Source: a virus. From it: a DNA stretch of 64,000 bases. Within the stretch, counting starts at the first letter, position 1; the number at the start of each line of letters is the position of its first letter. Below, in pieces: positions 5,599-51,460 of the stretch. The stretch spans positions 62,001 through 126,000 of IMG/VR virus record IMGVR_UViG_3300030518_000005; one strand, written 5' to 3'. Under the pieces are notes generated by a model. It was not told where the DNA came from. It made no database searches and was given only the letters and a program-made list of their open reading frames with translations. The position numbers and the translations under genes are program-made.

Positions 5599-5658
5599 AC
5601 CTTACCAAGTTCCAAGCATCCGTGACCGTTCACAGACTCTTAAGCTTATTCTATCAGG

Positions 5659-6903
5659 TTAAAACCCTGACTGTCCGTCGTCTCTGTCACTAACTTTAAT
5701 ATTTGCCCAGTACACTTCTTCTTCAGCCTGGGATGCAAACCGCTGAGTGATAGGCTTTGCAGCCTCTTGCATCCAGTTGTTAAAGCTGTTATTCCACTTA
5801 TGTTCTGCAGCCTTAGCCATGTCCTCAGTTACGACGCCACCGCCGAACATCTGTTCATCTGTAGGTTGCGGAGCAGGAGCTGCAAACATTGCTTTAACTT
5901 GCGGAGGTACGTTTTCACCTAGCATTGACTTACCGGCCATAAGATTAGCAAGTTGCTGCGCTGCAGCCTCTTCGCCGTCTTGTGGCTTGTTCTTAGCAAG
6001 GCGCATGATCTCTTCTTCTGCGCTAGGGAACGGATTATGGTTCGCCCAACCGCTCTTAGTGAGCTTGCTCTCATGTCTTGCTTTGATCTGTGCTACGACG
6101 TCCGGAGACATATCTTTCATTGTCTTAACCGGTCCTGGACGTTTCTGTGCAGGACTAGATTGCATGTCTTTGCCGGCAAACTTAGCAGATGTGTAGGCCT
6201 TGGTGTTTGTATTAGCACCGAAGCCAGTCTGATCGCCAGTGTTGTTAGCTTTACGACGAGCGTTGTCAGCAGGGTTATATTGGCTTGCGCCTTTAGGTCC
6301 ATAACCAGACTTTGCCATATCAAGGCATTTGTCGCACTGACAGCCTTCTACATGCTCAGATTGGCTCACAGGGTCATTGATATACGCGTAGCGCTTACCA
6401 GTACCGCCTGCGGTCGGTTGTGCAGTAGGAGTGTGATCATACATCTTAGGCGATGTGTTAACGGTTGCTACTCCTGGTGCGACCGGAGCTGCTGGTGCAG
6501 CTGGCGTTGCGGGAGCTGGAACTACACCAGGCTCAGGAGCAGGTGACATGTTAGTTGGTTGCTTAATTCCAAGCTTAGCACGGCGCTCACCAATCTCAAC
6601 GTCTTTGATTCGACGCTGGTTGGCCATCTGAGCTTTAGGATGCCAGTATGGAAGTTCATCATCTTTCGCAAGGCGAGAAAGAGACTTGATGAGCTCATCA
6701 GCCACTGTGTTTGCCTTATCGATAGGACGCTTGAAGTAGCGAACCGAAACTGTGCTCTTAGCTAAGTCTTCAATGAGGCCGCGAGCAGCCAGACCTTTAG
6801 TCAGCTGCTGCACCATCTCCATTGGAGTCTCAGGCGGAAGAACTACTTCAACTTCGTTTTCACTAATTTGTTCTAATTCAATCCTCGACATCGTATTCCT
6901 CAT
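5659..6903 (-). CDS. Structural-module protein with CxCxxC motif
   Basis: The 414-residue protein has an N-terminal helical region (IELEQISENEVEVVLPPETP), an Ala/Pro-rich linker near residues 120-150, and a CQCDKCLDM motif near residue 190 that may bind metal. The remainder is polar and helical. Its start overlaps the upstream acidic gene by 26 bases. It belongs to a run of four long, low-complexity proteins (5659-11683) between fibre and head genes. No family recognised. Confidence 0.55.
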   Translation of the reverse strand: MRNTMSRIELEQISENEVEVVLPPETPMEMVQQLTKGLAARGLIEDLAKSTVSVRYFKRPIDKANTVADELIKSLSRLAKDDELPYWHPKAQMANQRRIKDVEIGERRAKLGIKQPTNMSPAPEPGVVPAPATPAAPAAPVAPGVATVNTSPKMYDHTPTAQPTAGGTGKRYAYINDPVSQSEHVEGCQCDKCLDMAKSGYGPKGASQYNPADNARRKANNTGDQTGFGANTNTKAYTSAKFAGKDMQSSPAQKRPGPVKTMKDMSPDVVAQIKARHESKLTKSGWANHNPFPSAEEEIMRLAKNKPQDGEEAAAQQLANLMAGKSMLGENVPPQVKAMFAAPAPQPTDEQMFGGGVVTEDMAKAAEHKWNNSFNNWMQEAAKPITQRFASQAEEEVYWANIKVSDRDDGQSGF

Positions 6904-11693: not shown

Positions 11694-12044
11694 TTACTGG
11701 TTAACTTTACGGACGTTGTCCCGCGCTACTTGAACGAAAGCCGTTCCAGTAATTACGATATTGGTTTGTGACGCACGGCTTGTTACGCCCATGGGTCCAC
11801 CAGGAATTGCTCCAACATTAACAGGTTGGCCGCTTCCAGAATTGAAGAGAAGGATCTCGCCAGAAATCATTGTTGCTGCGAGTGTTCCGTCGATCGTCAC
11901 GGTTACAGCACCTGCTGCACGGACACGGAACGTTCTGAATGTATCCATAACTAGGGTACCAGCTGCTCCTGAGAGCTGCTCTTCCCAAACTTGGCCTACT
12001 TCTGCTTGACGGACGGCCTCATTGGCCAGGTTACTTGTACGCAT
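11694..12044 (-). CDS. Small beta-rich virion-like protein
   Basis: The 116-residue product is beta-rich (FRTFRVRAAGAVTVTIDGT) with glycine turns and no Cys. It has a strong Shine-Dalgarno (TAGGAG) before ATG 12044 and its own upstream -10 box at 12073-12078, which marks it as the first gene of the 11.7-to-1 kb transcript. Size and composition would suit a head decoration or minor structural protein. Function inferred from context only. Confidence 0.55.
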   Translation of the reverse strand: MRTSNLANEAVRQAEVGQVWEEQLSGAAGTLVMDTFRTFRVRAAGAVTVTIDGTLAATMISGEILLFNSGSGQPVNVGAIPGGPMGVTSRASQTNIVITGTAFVQVARDNVRKVNQ

Positions 12045-12072
12045 TGTATTGTCTCCTATAGACTATAGGGAC

Positions 12073-12078
12073 ATTATA
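12073..12078 (-). promoter_or_regulatory. -10 box GGTATAAT upstream of 12044 gene
   Basis: TATAAT on the minus strand, about 30 bases before the Shine-Dalgarno-led ATG at 12044. No TTGACA-like -35 is evident at normal spacing. Confidence 0.55.
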
Positions 12079-12159: not shown

Positions 12160-12606
12160 ATGGAAACAGTATATTGCACTATTTGCGAACAGCATAAATC
12201 ACAAGAAGACTTCTATAAGGGTAAATTTTCACCTAAACGAAAGGGACGCTGTAAAGAATGTACTAAGCGTATCGCTAGAGAATGGAAAGCGGCTAACCCT
12301 GAAAAGAATAAAGCCACTAATAAAAAGTGGAATGACAATAATTATTCTAAAAAGAGATACCGCGATCTAAAGAGGGAGTATGGAATTACTCCTGAACTTT
12401 ATGAGCAAATGTATATAGAACAAGAGGGCAATTGTAAGATCTGTAAAAGAAATAGGACAGAGTTTGCAAAGCGACTAGCTGTCGATCATTGCCACAAGAC
12501 AGGTAAAATTAGAGGTCTCTTATGTCAAAACTGCAATACGCTTTTAGGTAACAGTTTTGATAATCCAGAGACCCTAAAGAGAGCTGTCGAGTATCTTATT
12601 TCTTGA
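12160..12606 (+). CDS. Endonuclease VII-like homing endonuclease
   Basis: The 148-residue protein has an N-terminal CTICEQH...CKECT zinc-binding pair and the endonuclease VII core CKICKRN, AVDHCHKTGKIRGLLCQNCN, which supplies four Cys and the catalytic His region. T4 gp49 uses this fold to cut branched DNA, but seven such genes are scattered between core genes here, which is the pattern of free-standing homing endonucleases. This copy is alone on the plus strand in a minus-strand region, has a leaderless promoter, and its 3' end overlaps the convergent gene by 11 bases. Confidence 0.85.
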   Translation: METVYCTICEQHKSQEDFYKGKFSPKRKGRCKECTKRIAREWKAANPEKNKATNKKWNDNNYSKKRYRDLKREYGITPELYEQMYIEQEGNCKICKRNRTEFAKRLAVDHCHKTGKIRGLLCQNCNTLLGNSFDNPETLKRAVEYLIS

Positions 12607-14372: not shown

Positions 14373-15043
14373 TTCCCCAATCCGAGACCGGCAAGTATCT
14401 CGTTATGTACATCTTCAATTGACTTGCCGTCAACGTCTATTCTAACAGTGTTAAAGCGCTCGGACAGCTTATCCATGTAAAATGCGCACTTACTAATAAA
14501 ATCGTTTCCACGAGATTCCATCGCGTCGCCAGCAGAAAATTCCTGCTTCGCCTGTTTGGCCGCAGCCAAACCTTTGACAGAATCCCCTCGAAGATATATT
14601 ACAGTCTCATAGATCTGCTCTGCGGAAGGAGGGAAGATTCCGAGCTGATTATCGGCAGAATCAACGTTCTGATTAGCCATACTGATGAGATCTTCGGTAA
14701 GATTGCCGCATGCAGTACCGTAAGCATATCCACTGAGGATACCTCGGTCTTGAATGATGAAATCATATTCGTTTAGAGAAGGAACGATAAGTCGTTCGAG
14801 ATGAATAGAACGGATCGCTTGAGAGATAAATTCTCTTGCAGGTTTCGTCAGAACAGCATCGTATTGATTGTCCAACATGATCCCTCGCAACGCCATTGTC
14901 AACGGAACGAGAGGTGTGCCCGGTTCTTTCGTTTGCAATACGGTGTATCCTCGCGCGCGAAGGGTATCTACCAACTTCTGCGTTTGAGTTGTTTTTCCTA
15001 CGCCTTCAGTGCCTTCGAGACAGATATAACGTGCCTTTTTCAT
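14369..15043 (-). CDS. tmk: Thymidylate kinase (dTMP kinase)
   Basis: The protein begins MKKARYICLEGTEGVGKTTQ, with the P-loop EGTEGVGKTT near residues 10-19, then KEPGTP, the DR(Y/G)-type QDRGILSGYAYG segment and a lid-like region (AKQAKQEFSAGDAMESRG). This matches dTMP kinases of about 210-220 residues; this start gives 224. The frame is open further up to 15166, but ATG 15043 is preferred because a TATAAT box lies exactly six bases upstream and the longer form would overlap the next gene. It supplies dTDP for phage DNA synthesis. Confidence 0.85.
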   Translation of the reverse strand: MKKARYICLEGTEGVGKTTQTQKLVDTLRARGYTVLQTKEPGTPLVPLTMALRGIMLDNQYDAVLTKPAREFISQAIRSIHLERLIVPSLNEYDFIIQDRGILSGYAYGTACGNLTEDLISMANQNVDSADNQLGIFPPSAEQIYETVIYLRGDSVKGLAAAKQAKQEFSAGDAMESRGNDFISKCAFYMDKLSERFNTVRIDVDGKSIEDVHNEILAGLGLGK

Positions 15044-21892: not shown

Positions 21893-22461
21893 TACTGTAC
21901 GACCTCAAGCGAAGCTGAGGGCGAAGGATTACGAATAGAGAGAACTTCTACTTCATGGTCAAGACCATTCAATTTAGCAGTTACTTTATCGCCAACGCCT
22001 TTACCTTGCAAGTCTTGAATCAGAGCAGGAACGCCAGACTCGGACAATTTAAGGCGTGAGCGGAAGATGCCTTGATCCTCACCTTTGTCGTTTTTTGCAA
22101 CAGAAGTGATAGTGATCGTTGAATCTTCACTGATAGCATCAGCTGCCACCAGGTTTTCACGAACGTCAGCGTTATCTGCTGCTTCGTTAAAATCAACCAG
22201 GCGCTGAGCGTTAGAGAGCTCATTCAACTCTGCTTCATTGAGGTTGAAATGCTTTTGAATAGCTTTCAACTTATATTGAACTTCCATCAACTGCTGAAGC
22301 GCTCCACCGAGGTCTTGCTTCATGTTCTTGACGTTTTCCATCAATTGCTGTGTCATCATCTGCGAGATGCGACTAGCCATTTGGATATTAGCCAACTCAG
22401 TTTGAACTGCTTGTTGTGCCTCTTTCTTGTTAGGCTGAGGCGGTACACGAAAACCCTTCAT
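21892..22461 (-). CDS. Coiled-coil head-module protein
   Basis: The 189-residue product has an N-terminal coiled coil (residues about 20-75; NVKNMKQDLGGALQQLMEVQ) and a C-terminal beta domain with an acidic and Gly pattern (ITITSVAKNDKGEDQGIFRS, then GDKVTAKLNGLDHEVEVL), which looks like a small barrel. It is coupled to the kinase upstream and to the sigma-like gene downstream by one-base overlaps. No family recognised. Confidence 0.55.
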   Translation of the reverse strand: MKGFRVPPQPNKKEAQQAVQTELANIQMASRISQMMTQQLMENVKNMKQDLGGALQQLMEVQYKLKAIQKHFNLNEAELNELSNAQRLVDFNEAADNADVRENLVAADAISEDSTITITSVAKNDKGEDQGIFRSRLKLSESGVPALIQDLQGKGVGDKVTAKLNGLDHEVEVLSIRNPSPSASLEVVQ

Positions 22462-23309
22462 TAGTTTGCTCCTTTAGTCATAGCTCTTTTATACATCTCT
22501 TTATAGAACTTTACTTCTTCGTTAGTCAAAGAAGTCTCTTGCTGTCCACCAAGAAGCTTGCCTAGTTTGGTCGTGAGGAAGTTACGAACTTCATTCTCCA
22601 GATCAATATACACTGCAGCTTTGCTTTTGAGGATAGGCTTTGCAAGAATACCGTTAATTGCGTTAGCAACTTCAAGTTTGTGTTGCTCTGGGCTCTTGCC
22701 TGGATACTTAGCTACAGTAGATGAAACAACCTTAGTTGTATCTACTTCTGTAGTTACTTGCTGATCGCCAGAACCAGTAACCTGATAAGTTTTAGTTTCT
22801 AAAGCTGTTGCTTTCTGTGCGTCTACAATAGACTGTGCATCTGGGAACTGTTTCAGGAACGTCTGTAACGTTACTTTCTCAAATCCATACTGCTGTGCCA
22901 TTGACGAGAACAGTCCACGTGCGCGAGTGAATTGGGCCTTGTCCAAAGGCTCCTTATTGTCGACGCAACGCTGCCAGTGACCCTTCAGATCATCATCTGT
23001 CAGCCAGAGGCGTTGAACGCCAACTGATTGCTCGATCTCACGGATCATTTCAATTGCCTCGTCGTCGAGAAGAGCTTTACGTCCATAAACCTGTGGCCAT
23101 ACCAACTCACCATAGTGAGAACGGTCAAGAACCATATCTTTGTTTGCAGCAGAAGAAACTAACTCAACGATGTCTTGCAGGTATTGGTCTGATGTCGTGC
23201 CTTTTGGAGGAGCAGACATGTGAAGCTTTTCAAAACCGAGGGTTTCGAAATAGTCGGCAATTGTAGATTTCCCGGTACGGTCTAATCCTTCAAGTATTAC
23301 TAACGACAT
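22461..23309 (-). CDS. Thymidylate/deoxynucleoside-monophosphate kinase-like protein
   Basis: It starts MSLVILEGLDRTGKSTIADY; the P-loop is GLDRTGKST near residues 8-16, followed by VLDRSHYGELVWPQVYGR, the DR(S/Y)-type substrate-binding segment of P-loop dNMP kinases. The kinase part covers about 170 residues. A C-terminal extension of about 110 residues (TTKVVSSTVAKYPGKSPEQH) has no match I recognise. It is a second kinase in addition to tmk and lies oddly inside the head module. AGGAG precedes the ATG. Confidence 0.65.
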   Translation of the reverse strand: MSLVILEGLDRTGKSTIADYFETLGFEKLHMSAPPKGTTSDQYLQDIVELVSSAANKDMVLDRSHYGELVWPQVYGRKALLDDEAIEMIREIEQSVGVQRLWLTDDDLKGHWQRCVDNKEPLDKAQFTRARGLFSSMAQQYGFEKVTLQTFLKQFPDAQSIVDAQKATALETKTYQVTGSGDQQVTTEVDTTKVVSSTVAKYPGKSPEQHKLEVANAINGILAKPILKSKAAVYIDLENEVRNFLTTKLGKLLGGQQETSLTNEEVKFYKEMYKRAMTKGAN

Positions 23310-23331
23310 TGAAATCTCCTCATCAGAAGAG

Positions 23332-23337
23332 ATTATA
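23332..23337 (-). promoter_or_regulatory. -10 box TTGTATAAT before kinase gene
   Basis: TATAAT about 22 bases before ATG 23309, which has a GAGGAG Shine-Dalgarno, so this is a leadered member of the promoter class. It shares the TAA stop of the small ORF at 23333. Confidence 0.55.
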
Positions 23338-40716: not shown

Positions 40717-40748
40717 AAAAGAAAAAGGCACCGCTTTCGCGATGCCTT
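40717..40748 (-). terminator. Intrinsic terminator before polymerase gene
   Basis: AAGGCATCGC, GAAA tetraloop, GCGGTGCCTT (10 bp with one wobble) then TTTTTCTTTT on the minus strand. It ends the 40774-41619 transcript and abuts the polymerase promoter. Confidence 0.85.
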
Positions 40749-40773
40749 CTAATGCTTTATTGTAATGTGAGTC

Positions 40774-41619
40774 TTATGTTGTCTGGAAGTTGAATACGAG
40801 ATTGATGCTCGTAGTAATCGTGTCCGATACGTTCAGTTGTGCCGAAACTTCATAGTCATAAATTTCCTGATCGGCCATGCCAGCTTGAATTCCCGAGAGA
40901 TAAGCTTGGAGCAATAAGTTTGTACTCTGTAAAGGAGTAGCACCACGTTGGTAGCTTTGATATCCTGAGGGAGTTGAACTGCCTTGCGGCTGTGACATAT
41001 TGCTATTGCAGCTTGACATCGAGTTTCCACGAAGTGCAGACGGCTGATAGGTAGTTGGCAAAGTAAGGGTGAATTGGGTTTGTCCAACACCAGCTGCGGA
41101 CAGCAAAGCTGCGCGGATAGCTGAGTAGTTACCAGTTGCAGCAGTACCAGCTTGAGCGACAGAAGCATTTGCAGTGCCCCAGCCAGAACTCAAAGTGATG
41201 TGCGTTCCTACAACCAAAGGAGCAGACGTCTCAAACTGCAGAGCGTTACCGATCTGAGTAATAACGAAAGGGGCTGTAGAGATGGCAGTTACAGCAGCTG
41301 CGATATCAGAAGCAGCCTGCATTGAACTATCACCAGGAGCAACAGGAACTTGGATAAGGGTACGGCCTGCACCAGTTGGTGCAATCTCGCCAGCAACCGA
41401 GATCCACATGCGGTATCCAATACCAGGTGCATCTAGATCAAAGTAGATTCCAGCTAAACCAGAACCTGCGCCCATGTTGGCACCAGAACGGTCGCCAAGG
41501 CTAAGTACCGAGATCTCCGTGTTACCGGATCCAACAAAAGCGACGCCTGCTTGAAAGGCGTCATTAAGGGTCTGCGTCAGACCCGTTTCACCATTAAAAT
41601 AATCGGTTTTTAAACTCAT
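40774..41619 (-). CDS. Probable virion structural protein
   Basis: The 281-residue product is Ala/Gly/Thr-rich and beta-rich (ISVLSLGDRSGANMGAGSGL, FVITQIGNALQFETSAPL, HITLSSGWGTANASVAQAGT), ending with LNVSDTITTSINLVFNFQTT. It looks structural yet stands alone among replication genes. It has its own TAGAAT box, a GGAGG site presented in a hairpin loop, and a strong terminator. This isolated, well-signalled unit suggests high expression. Tail tube or head accessory are options; identity unknown. Confidence 0.5.
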   Translation of the reverse strand: MSLKTDYFNGETGLTQTLNDAFQAGVAFVGSGNTEISVLSLGDRSGANMGAGSGLAGIYFDLDAPGIGYRMWISVAGEIAPTGAGRTLIQVPVAPGDSSMQAASDIAAAVTAISTAPFVITQIGNALQFETSAPLVVGTHITLSSGWGTANASVAQAGTAATGNYSAIRAALLSAAGVGQTQFTLTLPTTYQPSALRGNSMSSCNSNMSQPQGSSTPSGYQSYQRGATPLQSTNLLLQAYLSGIQAGMADQEIYDYEVSAQLNVSDTITTSINLVFNFQTT

Positions 41620-41642
41620 AGAGCCTCCATGAAACTATGAGT
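41614..41642 (-). promoter_or_regulatory. Hairpin around ribosome-binding site of 41619 gene
   Basis: ACTCATAG and CTATGAGT form a perfect 8-bp stem on the minus-strand RNA. The 13-base loop holds GGAGG, and the ATG lies in the 3' arm. Confidence 0.6.
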
Positions 41643-41644
41643 TC

Positions 41645-41650
41645 ATTCTA
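41645..41650 (-). promoter_or_regulatory. -10 box TAGAAT before 41619 gene
   Basis: TAGAAT placed so that the transcript would begin just before the hairpin at 41642. Confidence 0.5.
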
Positions 41651-41938
41651 TCAGGAGTTAGCACCTGAGCTAGGATTCACTTCGCCGTCCTGGATTTCAC
41701 TGATCTTTTCCAAGAGGAAGTTGATCTTAGATTTCTCATACTTAATAGCTGAAGTATAGGCGCTATTGATATCCTTAACGATCTGCTTAGCAGCAGTGAG
41801 CTTTTCATCAGCCTCACGCTCTTGTTCGATCTCGCGGATCTTCTGGGTCGATTCTACGATCAACTGACCAGCTGCGTCTTCGTTGATGTCTTCGTGGTTA
41901 TCCATGAACGATTTAGTGAGGCCTTTAGTTTCTGACAT
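41651..41938 (-). CDS. Small coiled-coil protein
   Basis: The 95-residue protein is helical throughout (DAAGQLIVESTQKIREIEQE, KSKINFLLEKISEIQDGEVN) and acidic. AAAAGGAGC precedes its ATG 41938, one base after the stop of the HNH-containing gene upstream. It probably forms a coiled coil. Function unknown. Confidence 0.6.
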   Translation of the reverse strand: MSETKGLTKSFMDNHEDINEDAAGQLIVESTQKIREIEQEREADEKLTAAKQIVKDINSAYTSAIKYEKSKINFLLEKISEIQDGEVNPSSGANS

Positions 41939-41939
41939 G

Positions 41940-42485
41940 TTAGCTCCTTTTGGGTTTCAAAACATCTTTCAATTTCATGGCTCTTTCTACAACGGATTCT
42001 AAACCGATAGTCTTCTTCTTGGCCGTGAATTTAGAGAGCTGCTTTAATAGGGCCTTAGGTTCTATGATGAGGATTGGCCAGCGAGCCTCGATGTTGTCCA
42101 GCTCTGCAGTATACTTTATAAGCAATCTAGTAATACGTTCTTCTTGGGTCTTCTTGTCGTGGCAAGGATCACAAATGCGCTGTAGATTGCTCTTGTCACA
42201 CCATAGGCGAGCTATAAATTCGTCCCACGACTGCTTGCCATGATCTACAGAGATAACAGGAATCTTGTGGTCTACTGCCATCTTGGATGTAGAGACCCAC
42301 TCATCACAGACTTGACATTGACGTTGTACCCAGTCTTTTTTATGGCGACTACCATCTTTGTTAAACCTTGGCACTTGTCTTCTTGAAGCAGCCATAACCT
42401 CTTGAACTATAGGCGAACGACTGAATGCTCTTCTTAGAGCACCTCGTATAGCGGCTTCCTGGTTATACGGCGGGCGTTTTTTCAT
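41940..42485 (-). CDS. HNH endonuclease-like protein (possibly a phage core gene)
   Basis: Starting at ATG 42485 (CTGGAG ribosome-binding site), the product of about 181 residues has an N-terminal basic region, then CQVCDEWVSTSKMAVDHKIP and NLQRICDPCHDKKTQE, an HNH motif with four Cys. It differs from the homing families here, has a long C-terminal helical part (LLIKYTAELDNIEARWP), and is the target-side neighbour of a homing gene rather than an AT-rich insert. It could be a packaging-associated or repair nuclease. Confidence 0.65.
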   Translation of the reverse strand: MKKRPPYNQEAAIRGALRRAFSRSPIVQEVMAASRRQVPRFNKDGSRHKKDWVQRQCQVCDEWVSTSKMAVDHKIPVISVDHGKQSWDEFIARLWCDKSNLQRICDPCHDKKTQEERITRLLIKYTAELDNIEARWPILIIEPKALLKQLSKFTAKKKTIGLESVVERAMKLKDVLKPKRS

Positions 42486-42936
42486 AAAGCTCCAGGTATT
42501 CAACCAGTTTTAAAGCATTGGATTTACTGTCTTTTAGTAGACCAATAGCCATATTACACTTATAACAAAGAAGACCACGGACTTGTCCATTAGCATGATT
42601 ATGATCTAATGCTAACATACGACCCTTTAAATTCTCATTCTGAGGCTTGCTGCAGATGGCACATTTACCGTCTTGCTTTTCAAACATGGTCTTATAGGTC
42701 TCAAGAGTTACGCCATACTTAGTTTCTAGACTATTATTTTTTACGTAATCGGGGTTACGTAACTTCCAAGCAGTTGTTTGAGCTTTACGCTTGGATCCAG
42801 TAGACTTATAGATCTCTAAATTATATGAACGAGTGCAAGTTTTGCACTTGTGTTTTAATCCACTAGGCAAACTTGAATCTTTATAGAATTGTGATTGGTC
42901 TTGCTCTATGTTACAAGTATTACATCTCTTCGCCAT
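42463..42936 (-). CDS. Endonuclease VII-like homing endonuclease
   Basis: The 157-residue protein has CNTCNIEQ...CKTCTR, CAICSKPQNENLKGRMLALD, HNHANGQVRGLLCYKCN. Its 3' end overlaps the HNH protein start by 23 bases, and its YLELYE codons supply CTGGAG for that gene. A TATAAT box lies nine bases before its ATG. Confidence 0.85.
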   Translation of the reverse strand: MAKRCNTCNIEQDQSQFYKDSSLPSGLKHKCKTCTRSYNLEIYKSTGSKRKAQTTAWKLRNPDYVKNNSLETKYGVTLETYKTMFEKQDGKCAICSKPQNENLKGRMLALDHNHANGQVRGLLCYKCNMAIGLLKDSKSNALKLVEYLELYEKTPAV

Positions 42937-43286: not shown

Positions 43287-45026
43287 CTAGAATTCTAGGT
43301 TGATGACGGAGATTTCATTCCTTAGTTCAACCTTAAATGACTTAGTAAATTTGGCCTTTGCCTCTGCAGCGTGATCAATAACAAAGATCTGGCGAGTGCG
43401 TGCCAGGGTCTCTAACAGATCAATCACTATCTCGCGCCCTGCTTCATCCAGACCATCAAATGGCTCGTCGAGGATAATAGGGTTAAGGGTCATTCCAAAC
43501 TGCGTCTCAAGGACCTCTAGGAGCGCGAAGTCGACACATAGAGATAGGCCCTTCTGTTCACCACCAGATAGTGATCCGACCGATACGTCTTTGCCATTCT
43601 TCATCAGGGTCTCTGAGAACTTAGCACTAATCTCGCCCTTACCGTTCTCTTTGAAGGAGTTAAGTACGTATGTCATTGTGGGAGACAGAATATCCACGTA
43701 CTTCTGAATGATCTCGTTGAATGAATCGACAATAGAATCCAAGACATAGGCCTGAGCACCTGTGGGAGAATAGATGTTCGACAGCGTCTTGTAAACCTCT
43801 AATTGTCGCTTATTTGCACTAATATTAGTGACTAACTTTGATACACTTGCTTCCAAGGTCTCGATCTTGTTCTGTAAATCAGCGTTACTATTTAGTTTTA
43901 AACTCAGGTTTTCGACCTGTAAATTTTGTGTTCTTACAGACGCTTTAAGTTCTGAGAGGCGAAGTTGAGCAGCTTGATAGTCAGCACTATCTTGTTGCTT
44001 CTTCTCGCGCAGCCTACGAGCTAAGTCAGTTACACCCTGCTCCTTGAGCACAATGGCATCAGTCTCATCGATCTGCGTCTTTACAGATGCAGCCTTATCC
44101 TGTACCTTCTTTTGATGATCGGCATGTGCTAGACGTGCCTCTGCTGTGTCTAATGATGCGCCACATTCGCCGCAGGCAGCATCAGAATTATAATCGCCAA
44201 TCGCAGAGCGAAGCTCACGATAACGATCATGTAGCATTCCACGCTTGGCTTTGGCCTGTGCAATCTCGGACTGTTGCGTGCGGATCTTATCTTCGACAGA
44301 AATGTATTTAGATAGGTCAGGTTTTGTAACCTGGGCCTGTTCTAAGATTTCCTTTTCAAGATCTGCAATCATGAGGATGTATTGATTGATCTTCGTTTGT
44401 AGCGAAGCAGTGTCAACTAAAGATTCCTCGTATGCCTGAATGCGGGAACGAGTAGATGCAAGCGAGCGGTCGTCTACTTCGACTGCTGCTGAAAACTTTT
44501 TAATAAGGTCATCGATGAGCTTTTTGCCGGACCCAAACTGGTCAAGATTGAGAAGCTGAAGGAGGAACTCTTTCTTAGCCGCATCAGGGGAACTAAGGAA
44601 TCGGATAAGTTCTCCACTATTTGATTGAGGCGTATAGATTGTAAGAAGGAACTGTCCATAGCTGAGTCGAATAAAGGACTCAAATTCTGCTTGGGTGATG
44701 TCTTGTGGAATCCCATTTTTTGAGAAGATAGCTCCCTTAGGACGGCTTCGTCGAACGGTCCAGATATCCTCACCACATAAGACGCTAGCCTCCGCGAAGC
44801 CAGTCTTGCATCCTCTTCTAAGAATTTCACTTGCAGTAATTTTTCTAGGAAGTTTATCATACAGAGCAAATGACAGCCCATTGAATATAGCTGTCTTCCC
44901 GGCCCCGTTGGCTCTCTGAGTGTCATAATTCCAACCTTCAACGAGCACAAGACCCGTGTCTTCAAACTTTAGAGAAGCCTGCTGAATACTAAGAATGTCT
45001 TGGATCTCTAATGATAAAACACGCAT
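43287..45026 (-). CDS. Recombination endonuclease ATPase subunit, SbcC/Rad50/gp46-like
   Basis: The 579-residue protein has Walker A ANGAGKTAIFNGL near residue 39, a coiled coil interrupted by a CGEC zinc hook (DAACGECGASLD, about residue 285), the SLSGGEQKGLSL signature and Walker B IILDEPFDGLD followed by IFVIDH. This is the gp46 layout. It pairs with the gp47-like protein at 30971-32008. A TATAAT box lies exactly six bases before its ATG and its TAG is the stop of the gene before. Confidence 0.88.
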   Translation of the reverse strand: MRVLSLEIQDILSIQQASLKFEDTGLVLVEGWNYDTQRANGAGKTAIFNGLSFALYDKLPRKITASEILRRGCKTGFAEASVLCGEDIWTVRRSRPKGAIFSKNGIPQDITQAEFESFIRLSYGQFLLTIYTPQSNSGELIRFLSSPDAAKKEFLLQLLNLDQFGSGKKLIDDLIKKFSAAVEVDDRSLASTRSRIQAYEESLVDTASLQTKINQYILMIADLEKEILEQAQVTKPDLSKYISVEDKIRTQQSEIAQAKAKRGMLHDRYRELRSAIGDYNSDAACGECGASLDTAEARLAHADHQKKVQDKAASVKTQIDETDAIVLKEQGVTDLARRLREKKQQDSADYQAAQLRLSELKASVRTQNLQVENLSLKLNSNADLQNKIETLEASVSKLVTNISANKRQLEVYKTLSNIYSPTGAQAYVLDSIVDSFNEIIQKYVDILSPTMTYVLNSFKENGKGEISAKFSETLMKNGKDVSVGSLSGGEQKGLSLCVDFALLEVLETQFGMTLNPIILDEPFDGLDEAGREIVIDLLETLARTRQIFVIDHAAEAKAKFTKSFKVELRNEISVINLEF

Positions 45027-46020: not shown

Positions 46021-46398
46021 TTATTCCTTCTTCAAATATTCAGCTGCTTTAATTAACAGCTCTGGTGAATCTCTAAAATGACCTAGCCCCTGATTACACC
46101 AGTTACAGAGTAGTCCTCTAACTTTACCTGTCACATGATTATGATCTATGCTAAGCATCTTAGTTCTAGCCACACCAGTATCAGTTCTCTTACAGATCGC
46201 ACAAGCCGATCCTTGTTCTTTATACATAGTCTGAAAGGTTTCCTCAGTCAGACCGTATTTAGATTTCCTATAGCCTTTATCTCTATGCTTAGAACCACAA
46301 GGTTTACAACGATAAGACTTACCTAATGGCCTATTCTTATCGTTATGAAACTCCTCTAATGGTTTAGAAGTCTTGCAAACACCGCATGTCCTCATCAC
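46021..46398 (-). CDS. Endonuclease VII-like homing endonuclease
   Basis: The 125-residue protein shows CGVCKTSK...CKPCGSKH, CAICKRTDTG and MLSIDHNHVTGKVRGLLCNW, CNQGLGHF. It overlaps the chaperonin stop (ATGA) and its terminal codons AAYLKKE carry GAAGGAAT for the next gene. It is the shortest of the seven copies. Confidence 0.85.
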   Translation of the reverse strand: MMRTCGVCKTSKPLEEFHNDKNRPLGKSYRCKPCGSKHRDKGYRKSKYGLTEETFQTMYKEQGSACAICKRTDTGVARTKMLSIDHNHVTGKVRGLLCNWCNQGLGHFRDSPELLIKAAEYLKKE

Positions 46399-48119
46399 TC
46401 TTGTCCAACGTGACCTGTACTTGCAGACATCATTTCCTTAAAAGCACCTTTCGATAACTCAAGTTGTTGTTCTAAGCCAGCATTACGTGGAGAAACTACT
46501 ATTCCGCCCAATGTAGTTAATAGTGCAGCTACTGACAGGGCGTTACCAATTGTTACGCGGCAGACCTTTGCAGGTTCGATAATTCCGGCTTCAATAGGGT
46601 CTACGATCGCATGAGCTTGAGCATCGAAGATCTTCTTTGGAAGACCGTTCTGTGCCAAGAAAGCATCTTGGATCATCGGCCAAATCTCTTCAACAGACTC
46701 ACCGCAGTTGTCAAGCAACAGGTGAAAAGGCTGTTTTAATGCATTTGCCATGATTCCCCATGAAGGTTTCCGCTCTGGGTGATGTTCAATCATGTCTGCA
46801 AGTACAAGCTGAACTGCACAACCGCCAGGCAAGATGCCTTCAGCGATAGCAGATTTCACCGCTTCAACCGCGTCTTCAACGCGATCACGTTTTTCACGAG
46901 CTTCAAGATCAGAGCCACCGCCGACCCAAATAGTCGAAATACCGCCAGTAAGCTTACCGATAGCGGCCTTAATATGCATCTTATCAAAATCAGAGGGAGC
47001 CACATCCATAAGATGTTTAAGTTCAGCCAGGCGAGAGTCAATTCGCTCAGCGTCAGGTATTCCCTGAACGACAGATTCATACATGCCAACTTTAGCAGAA
47101 TCAAATGCGCCAAAGCCAGACGCTCGGTCTTCCGTAATAAACTTTTCGAGGGATCCGGGGTCATAGACCGTAGCTCCAGTGTATGCTGACATGTCCAGCA
47201 AGAAAGAGGAACGTGAGTTTGCGACACCCGACATTGGAGTCTTTACTGGAACGACTGTGTAACCGCCCTTTGTAGTCTTGGCGAAAGCTTCCATAACAAC
47301 ATCAGCAAAGCTGTGTGCGAAGACCATAATAGGAAGACCATAGAGTTCGGTACCTTCGATAGTTGCTTGGATCGCTCCAGGTACTTTAAGATCATTGAGG
47401 GATCCGTCATATAAGAATGCTAATCCGTGGTCCATCTTGACCTGTTGCAAACCTTTATCATTGATGAAGACTCGACCAATAGCTCCGATATCTTTCAAAC
47501 CAGAAGTGATAATGAATCCGTCCATGGTCTCAACTTTAAGTTGATTGCCCTGAGCTTCTTCAATCAGAACGTGACCATCATCTCCTGCAGCCATAACAGC
47601 AGTAACCGCAGCTTCAGCAATAGCTTTATCTCCGTTAGATGAAATCGTTGCAACAGAGATAAGTTGCTCTCGTCCTTTAACTGGAATTGCATTTGCTTTA
47701 ATGTAGGGAGTGATAACAGTAGAATATAGGTGGTTAAGTTCACCGACCATCCGCTGAGGATTATACTTGGGGTTGTTTGCAAGGAAATTCAATCCATTCT
47801 TCGTGATGGCATTAGCAAGCACGATAGCGGTAGTCGTACCGTCACCAGCTTCTTTAGCAGTTTTTAAACAGATCTCTTTAGCAGCATCAACGATGACGTT
47901 AGCGGCTGCATTTTCGACACCATAAGATTTTGCGACAGTTACACCATCTTTAGTAATTAAAGGTGACAAGTTGTCGCGCTCAATAATAACTGGATTTCCA
48001 CCAGGGCCAAGTGTTGTTCCAATAATTGCAGCCATATCATTAATGGTTGAATGAACGATGCTCTTTACATCATCTTTATTAACAACAACTTGCTTAGCTT
48101 TACTTCTCTCGTAAATCAT
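46395..48119 (-). CDS. groEL: GroEL-like chaperonin
   Basis: The 574-residue protein carries group I chaperonin motifs: IIGTTLGPGGNPVIIERD, ITKDGVTVAKSYGVENA, KEAGDGTTTAIVLANAI (ATP site with the catalytic Asp in GDGTT), and EAREKRDRVEDAVEAVKSAI, EGILPGGC. The size is slightly above bacterial GroEL (about 545) and the C-terminal GGM tail is absent. No groES is visible in the window. It may fold phage capsid or other proteins. It overlaps the flanking endonuclease genes by four bases each. Confidence 0.9.
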   Translation of the reverse strand: MIYERSKAKQVVVNKDDVKSIVHSTINDMAAIIGTTLGPGGNPVIIERDNLSPLITKDGVTVAKSYGVENAAANVIVDAAKEICLKTAKEAGDGTTTAIVLANAITKNGLNFLANNPKYNPQRMVGELNHLYSTVITPYIKANAIPVKGREQLISVATISSNGDKAIAEAAVTAVMAAGDDGHVLIEEAQGNQLKVETMDGFIITSGLKDIGAIGRVFINDKGLQQVKMDHGLAFLYDGSLNDLKVPGAIQATIEGTELYGLPIMVFAHSFADVVMEAFAKTTKGGYTVVPVKTPMSGVANSRSSFLLDMSAYTGATVYDPGSLEKFITEDRASGFGAFDSAKVGMYESVVQGIPDAERIDSRLAELKHLMDVAPSDFDKMHIKAAIGKLTGGISTIWVGGGSDLEAREKRDRVEDAVEAVKSAIAEGILPGGCAVQLVLADMIEHHPERKPSWGIMANALKQPFHLLLDNCGESVEEIWPMIQDAFLAQNGLPKKIFDAQAHAIVDPIEAGIIEPAKVCRVTIGNALSVAALLTTLGGIVVSPRNAGLEQQLELSKGAFKEMMSASTGHVGQE

Positions 48120-48493
48120 CTATTACCTTGCTGCTTTCTTGCTGCTCTTATTTTACTTAAAGTTTCTTCTGAGTGTTTCTTACCAAAGAAAGGGTTATCT
48201 TCTCCGACAAACCTTATGTCCTTCATAAGGTGTGACTTTAATGCATGACAGTTACAACATAGTGTTTTCAAGTTAGACTTGTCATTATTAGTTCGATCAC
48301 CATCAATATGATCAATTTCTAACTGAGAAGAAACTAACGCAATAAACACACACTCTTCACAAGAAGAACTCTTAACGATTCCATATCTTGTGCGACCTCT
48401 GCAGGTTCGACAAGTCTTTCCCCAAGAATTTGAACCGTCAACCTTAACAGCAGTCTTTTCTACTAAATTGCCACATGCGCATGTGGGTCTCAT
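48116..48493 (-). CDS. HNH endonuclease with NUMOD3 motif
   Basis: The 125-residue product has CACGNLVE and CRTCRGRTRYG zinc pairs, the HNH core SQLEIDHIDGDRTNNDKSNL with CCNCHALKS, and a C-terminal NUMOD3 (GEDNPFFGKKHSEETLSKI), a DNA-binding motif typical of homing endonucleases. It overlaps the chaperonin start and the methyltransferase-like stop by four bases each. Confidence 0.85.
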   Translation of the reverse strand: MRPTCACGNLVEKTAVKVDGSNSWGKTCRTCRGRTRYGIVKSSSCEECVFIALVSSQLEIDHIDGDRTNNDKSNLKTLCCNCHALKSHLMKDIRFVGEDNPFFGKKHSEETLSKIRAARKQQGNR

Positions 48494-49251
48494 TCGAAGT
48501 CATCCTCTTCTTTAGCCTTCTTAGCTTGCTTGATTGTACCTGGATTGTCTAACTTACCTTGGTTATGATCAGCTACAACCTTCTCATACTTCTTTAACTG
48601 TTTCTTATCAGTCTCAAACCCAAAGAAACTATGTCCTAATTTAAGTGCAGCTCTGAGTGAGCCTGTTCCGCCCATATTAGGGTCGAACACAACAGAACCT
48701 GGAAGACAATTGGTCATACGGATAAGTAGCTCTGCTAAATCTACCGGATAACTCTCATCTAGGGAGCCCGTCTCGATTTCCCAAGTATTGCCTGGGCAGG
48801 ATAAGTCATCGTGGACTTTCATGTACTGGCGCAGCGGAAGGCGGTCCAGTTTCCAGACATCGCCGTTGCAGAAGTGCATTACATATTCGTGGGAATTAAC
48901 GAGATTCGTTTCTGAGCGCTTGCCAGGGAACCAGGTCTTTTTGATAACTATGTTATCAACGTGATTGAATCCTGCATCGTCCATCAACTTAGCAACTTCA
49001 AATGGGCGCCACTTAGCTTCAATAGGAGCATAGCAAATTAAGAACACGATCCCGTTAGGAACCATGTTGGCTTTTAAACGCTTTGCAAATTCTTCGAATT
49101 TCTTTGGATCCCAACCGTCACGCTTACGAATAGGGACGCGGGTAATGCAGATCTCCGTATTCGCCGGCCATACAGCATCAGCGTCTAGGGAGTCCAATTC
49201 TTGGATACGAACTGATGTGTTGAATAGGCTGGAGAGATTATCTAATTTCAC
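48490..49251 (-). CDS. DNA methyltransferase-like protein, DPPY motif not seen
   Basis: The 253-residue protein has the C-terminal half of an N4/N6-type methyltransferase: YPVDLAELLIRMTNCLPG and VVFDPNMGGTGSLRAALKLG, HSFFGFETDKKQ (SAM-binding motif I, near residue 190). The expected catalytic (D/S)PPY near the N-terminus is absent; the region reads TEICITRVPIRKRDGW. It may be inactive or use different chemistry. The start is GTG 49251, overlapping the HNH stop (GTGA). Confidence 0.6.
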   Translation of the reverse strand: MKLDNLSSLFNTSVRIQELDSLDADAVWPANTEICITRVPIRKRDGWDPKKFEEFAKRLKANMVPNGIVFLICYAPIEAKWRPFEVAKLMDDAGFNHVDNIVIKKTWFPGKRSETNLVNSHEYVMHFCNGDVWKLDRLPLRQYMKVHDDLSCPGNTWEIETGSLDESYPVDLAELLIRMTNCLPGSVVFDPNMGGTGSLRAALKLGHSFFGFETDKKQLKKYEKVVADHNQGKLDNPGTIKQAKKAKEEDDFE

Positions 49252-49820
49252 TTGAAACCATTGCTTTTCTTAAAGTTTAAATCGCCAGGTAATAGCTGTA
49301 AGTTCCAAGGTACATGTAATCCACATACAATTTTTCCCCGTAAAGGTACAATATGGTCTACATGAAAAGCTTTTCCATCTTGATTAAGCCAAGCTAAGTC
49401 TTGAGCCAGATTATAAAACTCTTTAATATCCTCTAACTGTACTTGAGATAGCCACTGTGGAGTAGATTTTTTCTTTACTAATCTATAATGAGTCGTAGCT
49501 GCGTTACAAACACCTTTATTGTCTTTTCTATAAAGAGAGTTATAAGAGTTAACTTTAACTTTATTACTTAAGTAATAAGTATGTCTAAGTTCTTTATGAT
49601 AATCTATATTATTAGTGTAATAGTTCTTCATTTTAGAAGAAATGATATGAGCATTCACTAACCTATAGTTTTTGCTATAAAGTTTTCTAGTTTCAGAGTT
49701 ATTTTGATAATATTGATTACAACAAGTTTTACAATAGTGGTGAAAACCATCTTTTGATCTAGTTCTCTTATGGAACTCATCGAATGATTTAGTGATTTTA
49801 CATTGCAAACAAAGCTTCAT
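49248..49820 (-). CDS. HNH homing endonuclease (FHVDH type)
   Basis: The product has MKLCLQCKITKSFDEFHKRT with a CxxC...CKTCC pair and ends with DLAWLNQDGKAFHVDHIVPL and GLHVPWNLQLLPGDLNFKKS, the same HNH core as the 30502 gene. An upstream ATG at 49829 is possible, but ATG 49820 lies seven bases after a TATAAT box and begins at the zinc motif. AT-rich. Confidence 0.82.
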   Translation of the reverse strand: MKLCLQCKITKSFDEFHKRTRSKDGFHHYCKTCCNQYYQNNSETRKLYSKNYRLVNAHIISSKMKNYYTNNIDYHKELRHTYYLSNKVKVNSYNSLYRKDNKGVCNAATTHYRLVKKKSTPQWLSQVQLEDIKEFYNLAQDLAWLNQDGKAFHVDHIVPLRGKIVCGLHVPWNLQLLPGDLNFKKSNGFK

Positions 49821-49827
49821 GCCTGAC

Positions 49828-49833
49828 ATTATA
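49828..49833 (-). promoter_or_regulatory. -10 box TAGTATAAT seven bases before HNH ATG
   Basis: Minus-strand TAGTATAAT; TAG is the stop codon of 49834-50286. It decides ATG 49820. Confidence 0.55.
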
Positions 49834-51385: not shown

Positions 51386-51460
51386 TGGTGCTCCATGAGG
51401 GGATCGAACCCACGACCAGGTCTTTTAGAGGGACTTGCTCTACCGCTGAGCTAATGGAGC
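51386..51460 (-). tRNA. tRNA with apparent CUA anticodon
   Basis: Cloverleaf on the minus strand: acceptor GCTCCAT/ATGGAGC, discriminator A and encoded CCA, D arm GCTC/GAGC with GGTA, and T loop TTCGATC. The anticodon loop reads CTCTAAA, giving CUA (would read UAG). The anticodon stem has A-C mismatches at both ends and the T stem one U-U pair, so function is uncertain. Confidence 0.7.

Follow-up and report, generated by a model that had tools for sequence, protein, structure and literature searches.

The ribosome-binding site (RBS) and start codon of one phage gene, which we call the focal gene, lie inside a hairpin, raising the question of which RNA this hairpin forms on and what it does there to translation. 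We addressed the question in a window of 64,000 bases, the whole stretch of DNA analyzed, which spans positions 62001-126000 of the 174,974-base virus record IMGVR_UViG_3300030518_000005. Our preferred answer, to which we give a probability of about 0.6, is that the hairpin would act as a lock on the RBS of read-through RNA, similar to the structures at T4 gene e and I-TevI and set on a sigma70-like promoter. The features on which the argument draws are collected in Table 1.

Table 1. Coordinates of features at the focal locus and of two further leaders in the window
Feature	Position	Strand	Basis or remark
Focal gene, 281 aa	40774..41619	(-)	Possible virion protein
95-aa gene	41651..41938	(-)	Upstream of focal gene; presumed source of read-through RNA
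Intrinsic terminator-like hairpin, 12 pairs	40723..40750	(-)	3' of focal gene; site scan
Extended -10 element TGATAGAAT	41645..41653	(-)	Shares TGA stop (41653-41651) of 95-aa gene; recurs in homologues
Promoter discriminator GAACTC (-6..-1), bulk of hairpin 5' arm	41639..41644	(-)	Position relative to -10; swap test
Hairpin 5' arm UGAACUCAUAG	41635..41645	(-)	RNAfold; expected +1 at 41638 falls within
13-nt loop UUUCAUGGAGGCU, Shine-Dalgarno GGAGG at 41628-41624	41622..41634	(-)	Sequence, fold
3' arm CUAUGAGUUUA, AUG at 41619-41617	41611..41621	(-)	Sequence, fold
Weaker alternative hairpin of locally started RNA, AUG still covered	41611..41637	(-)	Predicted fold
Second putative locked leader, TATAAT GTCCCT/ATAGTCTATAGGAGACAATACA ATG	12042..12078	(-)	116-aa gene 11694-12044
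Third putative locked leader, TATAAT CTCTTC/TGATGAGGAGATTTCA ATG	23307..23337	(-)	Kinase-like gene 22461-23309

On the (-) strand, a perfect 8-bp inverted repeat at 41642-41614 (ACTCATAG-TTTCATGGAGGCT-CTATGAGT) puts GGAGG in the loop and the AUG in the 3' arm, just as an earlier note on this DNA had described, and RNAfold extends the stem to 11 bp including one G-U pair (41645-41635 with 41621-41611). The 35-nt hairpin element, whose boundaries were chosen after the fact, folds at -11.9 kcal/mol (RNAfold), with 1 of 200 shuffles equally stable (z -3.7), and the fold of its 71-nt context is unremarkable (21/200 shuffles, z -1.5). By opening cost, the focal RBS ranks seventh among 81 window genes delimited with a simple gene caller. 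From this one site alone, the hairpin is only suggestive; it is the comparative data that make it convincing.

The same note had credited the gene with its own promoter, and a -10-like element is indeed present: TGNTANNAT occurs in 25 of the 34 unique upstream regions of homologues, with no such promoter in the other 9, and two of the carriers (L041 and L047) were found by motif search alone, the protein search alone giving 23/32. At the focal promoter itself, a scan for sigma70 -35/-10 pairs lists no site, and the T4 late promoter class (gp55; TATAAATA) is absent, the element there being TGATAGAAT. When 20 of these 25 regions, picked among those with TGNTANNAT, are aligned, the columns of TGATANAAT are invariant and the next six bases variable. 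Since the last six bases of TGATANAAT come after the stop codon of the upstream gene, their conservation is not a matter of coding, and the conserved motif reads most naturally as a putative -10 element followed by a free discriminator. We also considered CTGATANAAT as a genome-wide promoter class and rejected it: it matches 4 times in the 174,974 bases and its reverse 2 times, which shows no wide use of the CTGATA form, in contrast to plain TATAAT-N6-ATG. Just before TAGAAT lies a TCAGG-N7/8-CCTGA repeat (41645-41670, (-) strand), with another such site at about 5648-5680 on the same strand; its TCAGG half belongs to the upstream gene, whose end is conserved, and may reflect a regulator site or a codon constraint. 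As an essential palindrome, TCAGG-N8-CCTGA was rejected, being broken in three relatives (L010, L011, and L023).

The register of transcription can be approached through other genes of this phage group. Across six records, TATAAT-N6-ATG occurs 69 times versus 9 for the reversed pattern, and in the same records the spacings N7-16, ten together, give 152 versus 90 reversed. Within the window, TANAAT-N6-(ATG/GTG/TTG) is found at 15 places, and at 11 of them an ORF of 100 aa or more begins, the starts including those of a polymerase (40703) and an SbcC-like gene. The TATAAT-N6-ATG genes look leaderless, with the A of ATG as +1 at the seventh base after the hexamer, a position that is usual for +1 at sigma70 promoters. 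The apparent leaderless genes of the window, with TANAAT six bases before ATG, start at 12160 on the (+) strand and at 15043, 15603, 16179, 21280, 25472, 40703, 45026, 50773, 53074, and 54788 on the (-) strand; they include genes for DNA polymerase, an SbcC-like protein, helicase, endolysin, and portal, the last also with an SD-like word. Carried over to the focal promoter, the register of these leaderless genes, in which some 7 nt lead from the -10 hexamer to +1, would have transcription start near 41638, a position within the 5' arm. The earlier note, which had the transcript begin just before the stem, is thus probably wrong on this point. With +1 at 41638, the 11-base 5' arm would be short of seven bases in the gene's own transcript, the six of the discriminator and one more, and, since the arm is mostly discriminator, the full hairpin would form only on read-through RNA. 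A 5'-terminal mRNA-stabilizing hairpin was also considered here and rejected, the arm mostly preceding +1.

In the mechanism that we propose, polymerase arriving from the co-directional genes upstream (a 106-aa gene, two HNH-type genes, and the 95-aa gene) would make RNA with the whole hairpin and a paired AUG, from which the focal gene would be poorly translated. Such read-through RNA is in line with the scan, in which the (-) strand has no terminator-like site from 43389 to 41620. RNA begun at the gene's own extended -10 promoter, inside the 5' arm, would be clipped of the discriminator-encoded half, leaving a weaker structure on which ribosomes load more easily. In vivo, focal translation would thereby be repressed on read-through RNA and would depend on the gene's own promoter, which presumably acts later. 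For the focal phage, the predicted opening cost is 10.2 kcal/mol on read-through RNA, with an AUG unpaired probability of at most 0.04, and 7.2 kcal/mol on local RNA, in which an alternative hairpin is predicted to persist (UUCAUGGA/UCUAUGAG, pairing 41633-41626 with 41622-41615, and three outer pairs, 41637-41635 with 41613-41611). Other natural leaders have larger predicted differences between read-through and local RNA, such as L006, L125, and L161 (9.0, 12.5, and 12.1 kcal/mol, respectively). Downstream, the terminator that the earlier note had assigned to the gene corresponds to the 12-pair site in Table 1.

HNH or endonuclease VII-like genes lie among the replication genes on the (-) strand (41940-42503, 42463-42936, 46021-46398, 48116-48493, and 49248-49829), with another on the (+) strand (12160-12606); family searches covered 41940-42503 and 42463-42936, the other HNH-type genes being judged from sequence. 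The same region of the (-) strand encodes a GroEL-like chaperonin (46395-48119), and the 95-aa gene has a 69% identical neighbor at the relative L002.

We gathered relatives of the focal gene with an IMG/VR protein search, which gave 33 and then 41 loci on largely the same contigs, and with a promoter-pattern search, which gave 29 stretches, 21 preceding a homologue of the focal gene and 8 not; merging identical upstream regions left the 34 unique ones. When discriminators are swapped among the family's leaders, the own discriminator stabilizes the leader by -5.46 kcal/mol versus -2.99 for swapped ones (sd 0.39; n=25; 0/20,000 permutations) and raises the cost of SD-to-AUG opening by 2.45 versus 1.17 kcal/mol (n=25; 0/20,000), the permutations counting leaders rather than events, among homologues that share ancestry and are not independent. 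The stability result holds for representatives less than 75% alike (n=11; 0/20,000) and in subsets: nine class A leaders (91/20,000), the other 16 leaders (1/20,000), and 13 leaders including one class B member (16/20,000). Across all the leader sets of this analysis, three doubtful leaders, L021 (TGGTAAGAT), L137, and L164, were kept, the matched start in the latter two being a non-start codon.

The stem sequences themselves vary among relatives, and the class B stem contains the SD itself. In the class A helix (nine leaders, differing by one from the nine of the permutation set, L031 here in place of L041 there), 93.7% of 79 cells are paired versus 28-57% when the arms are slid, with 10 cells G-U and 5 unpaired. 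Three pairs are changed on both sides, the same number as at a slide of -1, and the pair-type counts are not above shuffles (173/500). The covariation in relatives that the earlier note had suggested looking for is thus present, in the swap tests and in the class A alignment.

We further find the arrangement at two other genes of the window (Table 1). The opening cost is predicted at 11.1 kcal/mol on read-through versus 4.3 on local RNA for the gene starting at 12044, and at 8.2 versus 3.1 kcal/mol for that starting at 23309, and in both the arm that pairs with the SD directly abuts TATAAT. A PHROG search with the two products gave no match, and the labels "structural-looking" for the 116-aa gene and "kinase-like" for the other are our own. 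A further case, outside the window, precedes a short 43-codon ORF (L108).

Relatives feeding the leader sets were the best 80 of 114. Leaders entering the permutations had a -10 and at least 14 nt, the script taking the TANAAT nearest the start; this excluded from the 12044 family 3 of 22 unique leaders without TANAAT, and from the 67 unique leaders of the 23309 family 12 without TANAAT, 6 leaderless, and 9 short ones. Where no SD word was found (5/40 leaders of the 23309 family), the 12 nt preceding the start served instead. Own-versus-swapped tests gave 0/20,000 for stability in both families (n=19 for 12044, n=40 for 23309), and 106/20,000 and 0/20,000, respectively, for opening cost; among representatives, the counts were 101/20,000 (n=8) and 0/20,000 (n=22).

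We compared these families with 51 control genes of the window, which have an SD, no TANAAT within 55 nt, and borrowed leader lengths. The predicted cost of opening the RBS on read-through RNA exceeds that on local RNA by 2 kcal/mol or more in 19/19 leaders of the 12044 family, 30/40 of the 23309 family, and 14/25 of the focal family, versus 15/51 controls (Fisher p versus control 3e-8, 1.5e-5, and 0.024, respectively), the change being below 2 kcal/mol in 11/25 focal-family leaders. This comparison used 34 nt of upstream context, and its result is hardly altered when +1 is shifted to the 5th-9th base. At least three discriminator bases are predicted to pair with the stretch from SD to AUG in 11/19, 19/40, and 9/25 leaders of the 12044, 23309, and focal families and in 5/51 controls. 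The window's own focal leader scores 1.0 by this measure, its arm pairing mostly beyond the AUG, and 8 of the 19 leaders of the 12044 family have no such pairing, upstream bases pairing there instead in several of them. In position profiles of the 12044 family and the 23309 family, RBS pairing is concentrated upstream of +1 and falls off sharply once +1 is reached; the drop is less clean in the focal family, which is the weakest of the three.

Beyond the focal gene, it is possible, if somewhat short of an even bet, that translation in this phage group is gated more generally by a gene's own promoter, through either a leaderless start at +1 or an RBS locked by a discriminator arm, the two modes being interchangeable. 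This tentative reading would have orthologues of one gene switch between leaderless and locked, and the bases -6 to -1 selected as an RNA lock that never occurs in the promoter's own transcripts. Among the unique upstream regions of 23309 orthologues, 6/67 are leaderless (leader of at most 8 nt).

A different use of the same layout would be translational coupling, in which ribosomes that reach the end of the 95-aa gene (41651) open up the hairpin and focal translation comes to depend on translation upstream. The stop codon precedes the 5' arm by 5 nt, a ribosome terminating there would cover much of that arm, and the order of stop, TANAAT, and arm is repeated in relatives. The gene at 12044 speaks against coupling as a general rule: it has the same design, yet the next upstream ORF on its strand ends about 550 nt away, a distance taken from a simple gene set in which small ORFs could be missed. 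In the family of this gene and in that of 23309, moreover, RBS pairing falls at +1, and we regard coupling as unlikely.

The earlier note had favored a translational switch, controlled by protein or temperature, in a hairpin placed right at the start of the RNA made from the gene's own promoter. Control of the RBS by a hairpin is supported; switching by these agents is not, and we consider it improbable. The RBS does lie in the loop and the AUG in the stem, and local RNA retains the alternative hairpin over the AUG; against this, the expected +1 falls within the 5' arm, and the stem is predicted to be folded alike at 15, 25, and 37 °C, on which ground, with no Rfam match, an RNA thermometer was rejected. 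Stem and loop sequences vary among relatives, leaving no obvious common ligand site. A riboswitch or other known cis-regulatory RNA family was likewise rejected, the Rfam 15 covariance models giving 0 matches at E up to 1 in 41300-42000. At gathering scores, Rfam finds nothing in the whole window except a tRNA (51386-51460, (-) strand; tRNA-Pyl by ARAGORN), whose CTA anticodon makes it a possible amber suppressor.

Could purine-rich RBSs and pyrimidine-rich discriminators pair without function at the focal site, as a matter of chance and composition? The unexceptional 71-nt fold and the 15 of 51 control genes that reach a 2 kcal/mol difference would allow it, but the own-versus-swapped tests keep the family's discriminators, and stability at 0/20,000 in three families, with opening cost at 0 (focal), 106 (12044), and 0 (23309) of 20,000, makes this explanation quite improbable. 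That the inverted repeat acts as DNA, as an operator that overlaps the promoter and is bound by a phage regulator, is very improbable: its position (around -7 to +28) is suitable and the TCAGG-N8-CCTGA repeat also overlaps the promoter, yet the repeat sequence varies among relatives and the non-Watson-Crick cells of class A are mostly G-U, as expected for RNA.

If the focal protein were part of the virion, late-only translation through an RBS lock would be sensible. The earlier note had called the gene structural-like, which is plausible and goes no further: PHROG tail sheath is a weak match in one of five homologues tested (that at L002, E 2.3e-4), the structure matches are partial, and the neighbors are of replication type, with the SbcC-like gene (43287-45026) on the upstream side and a DNA polymerase III alpha-like gene on the downstream side. 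Family members (L001-L034) come in two forms: the core form measures 114-146 aa, and the form that contains an inserted domain 273-363 aa. Neither DNA nor protein searches of the focal region against named phage records gave a match at E up to 1e-5, the protein being unmatched among 50,697 such records; none was found in PHROG or Pfam, nor in the PDB by sequence and fold searches at E up to 0.001. Within the window, the protein finds only itself and one chance match at E 7. A search of viral structures with its model gave 294 matches, 14 with E up to 0.001, mostly unnamed and partial (TM 0.25-0.40 on the query), with a baseplate J-like protein and a giant-virus protein among the 14. The protein may thus be part of the virion. 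A search of genome contigs for the focal gene gave a single match, LNEN01000305.1 (L120), which is 146,658 bases long and belongs to a Cytophagales MAG; it is probably phage DNA that was binned with the bacterium.

An RBS lock of this kind would give promoter discriminators a second, post-transcriptional role, and it offers a simple sequence rule for predicting phage genes that are silent on read-through RNA; the covariation supplies dozens of natural variants. In the literature searched, from which subscription papers mostly fell outside, we found no paper on discriminator-encoded RBS locks, a weak negative.

The closest known system is T4 gene e, whose long early transcripts fold a hairpin over the RBS that lowers lysozyme synthesis 100-fold; RNA from its late promoters, which lie immediately 5' of the RBS, lacks the 5' part of the hairpin and is well translated (PMC3014915). 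The focal locus shares with gene e an RBS hairpin on (predicted) long transcripts and a promoter within the DNA that encodes the 5' strand (PMC3014915). Our opening-cost pipeline, applied outside this phage group to T4 gene e alone, gives about 17 kcal/mol for read-through versus 4 for local RNA. The two differ in that the T4 promoter is of the late class TATAAATA, whereas here it appears sigma70-like (TGATANAAT/TATAAT), and in that the arm here is largely the discriminator itself. The RBS of I-TevI is sequestered only on early and middle transcripts and freed on late ones, with similar arrangements at I-TevII, I-TevIII, segB, and Aeh1 mobE (PMC2988022). A sequestered RBS is predicted at the focal gene too; the I-TevI group consists of homing endonuclease genes, whereas the genes here are a probable virion gene, a structural-looking one, and a kinase-like one. 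T4 soc and gene 49 are also named among inhibitory structures at translation starts (PMC3014915). By layout, the focal hairpin is probably a T4-type read-through lock, and by promoter class a non-member, apparently set apart by its recurrence at several genes of one phage group. If this is true, a second group of large phages would make recurrent use of a trick known from a handful of T4-type genes, building it on sigma70-like promoters and applying it to virion-type and kinase-like genes.
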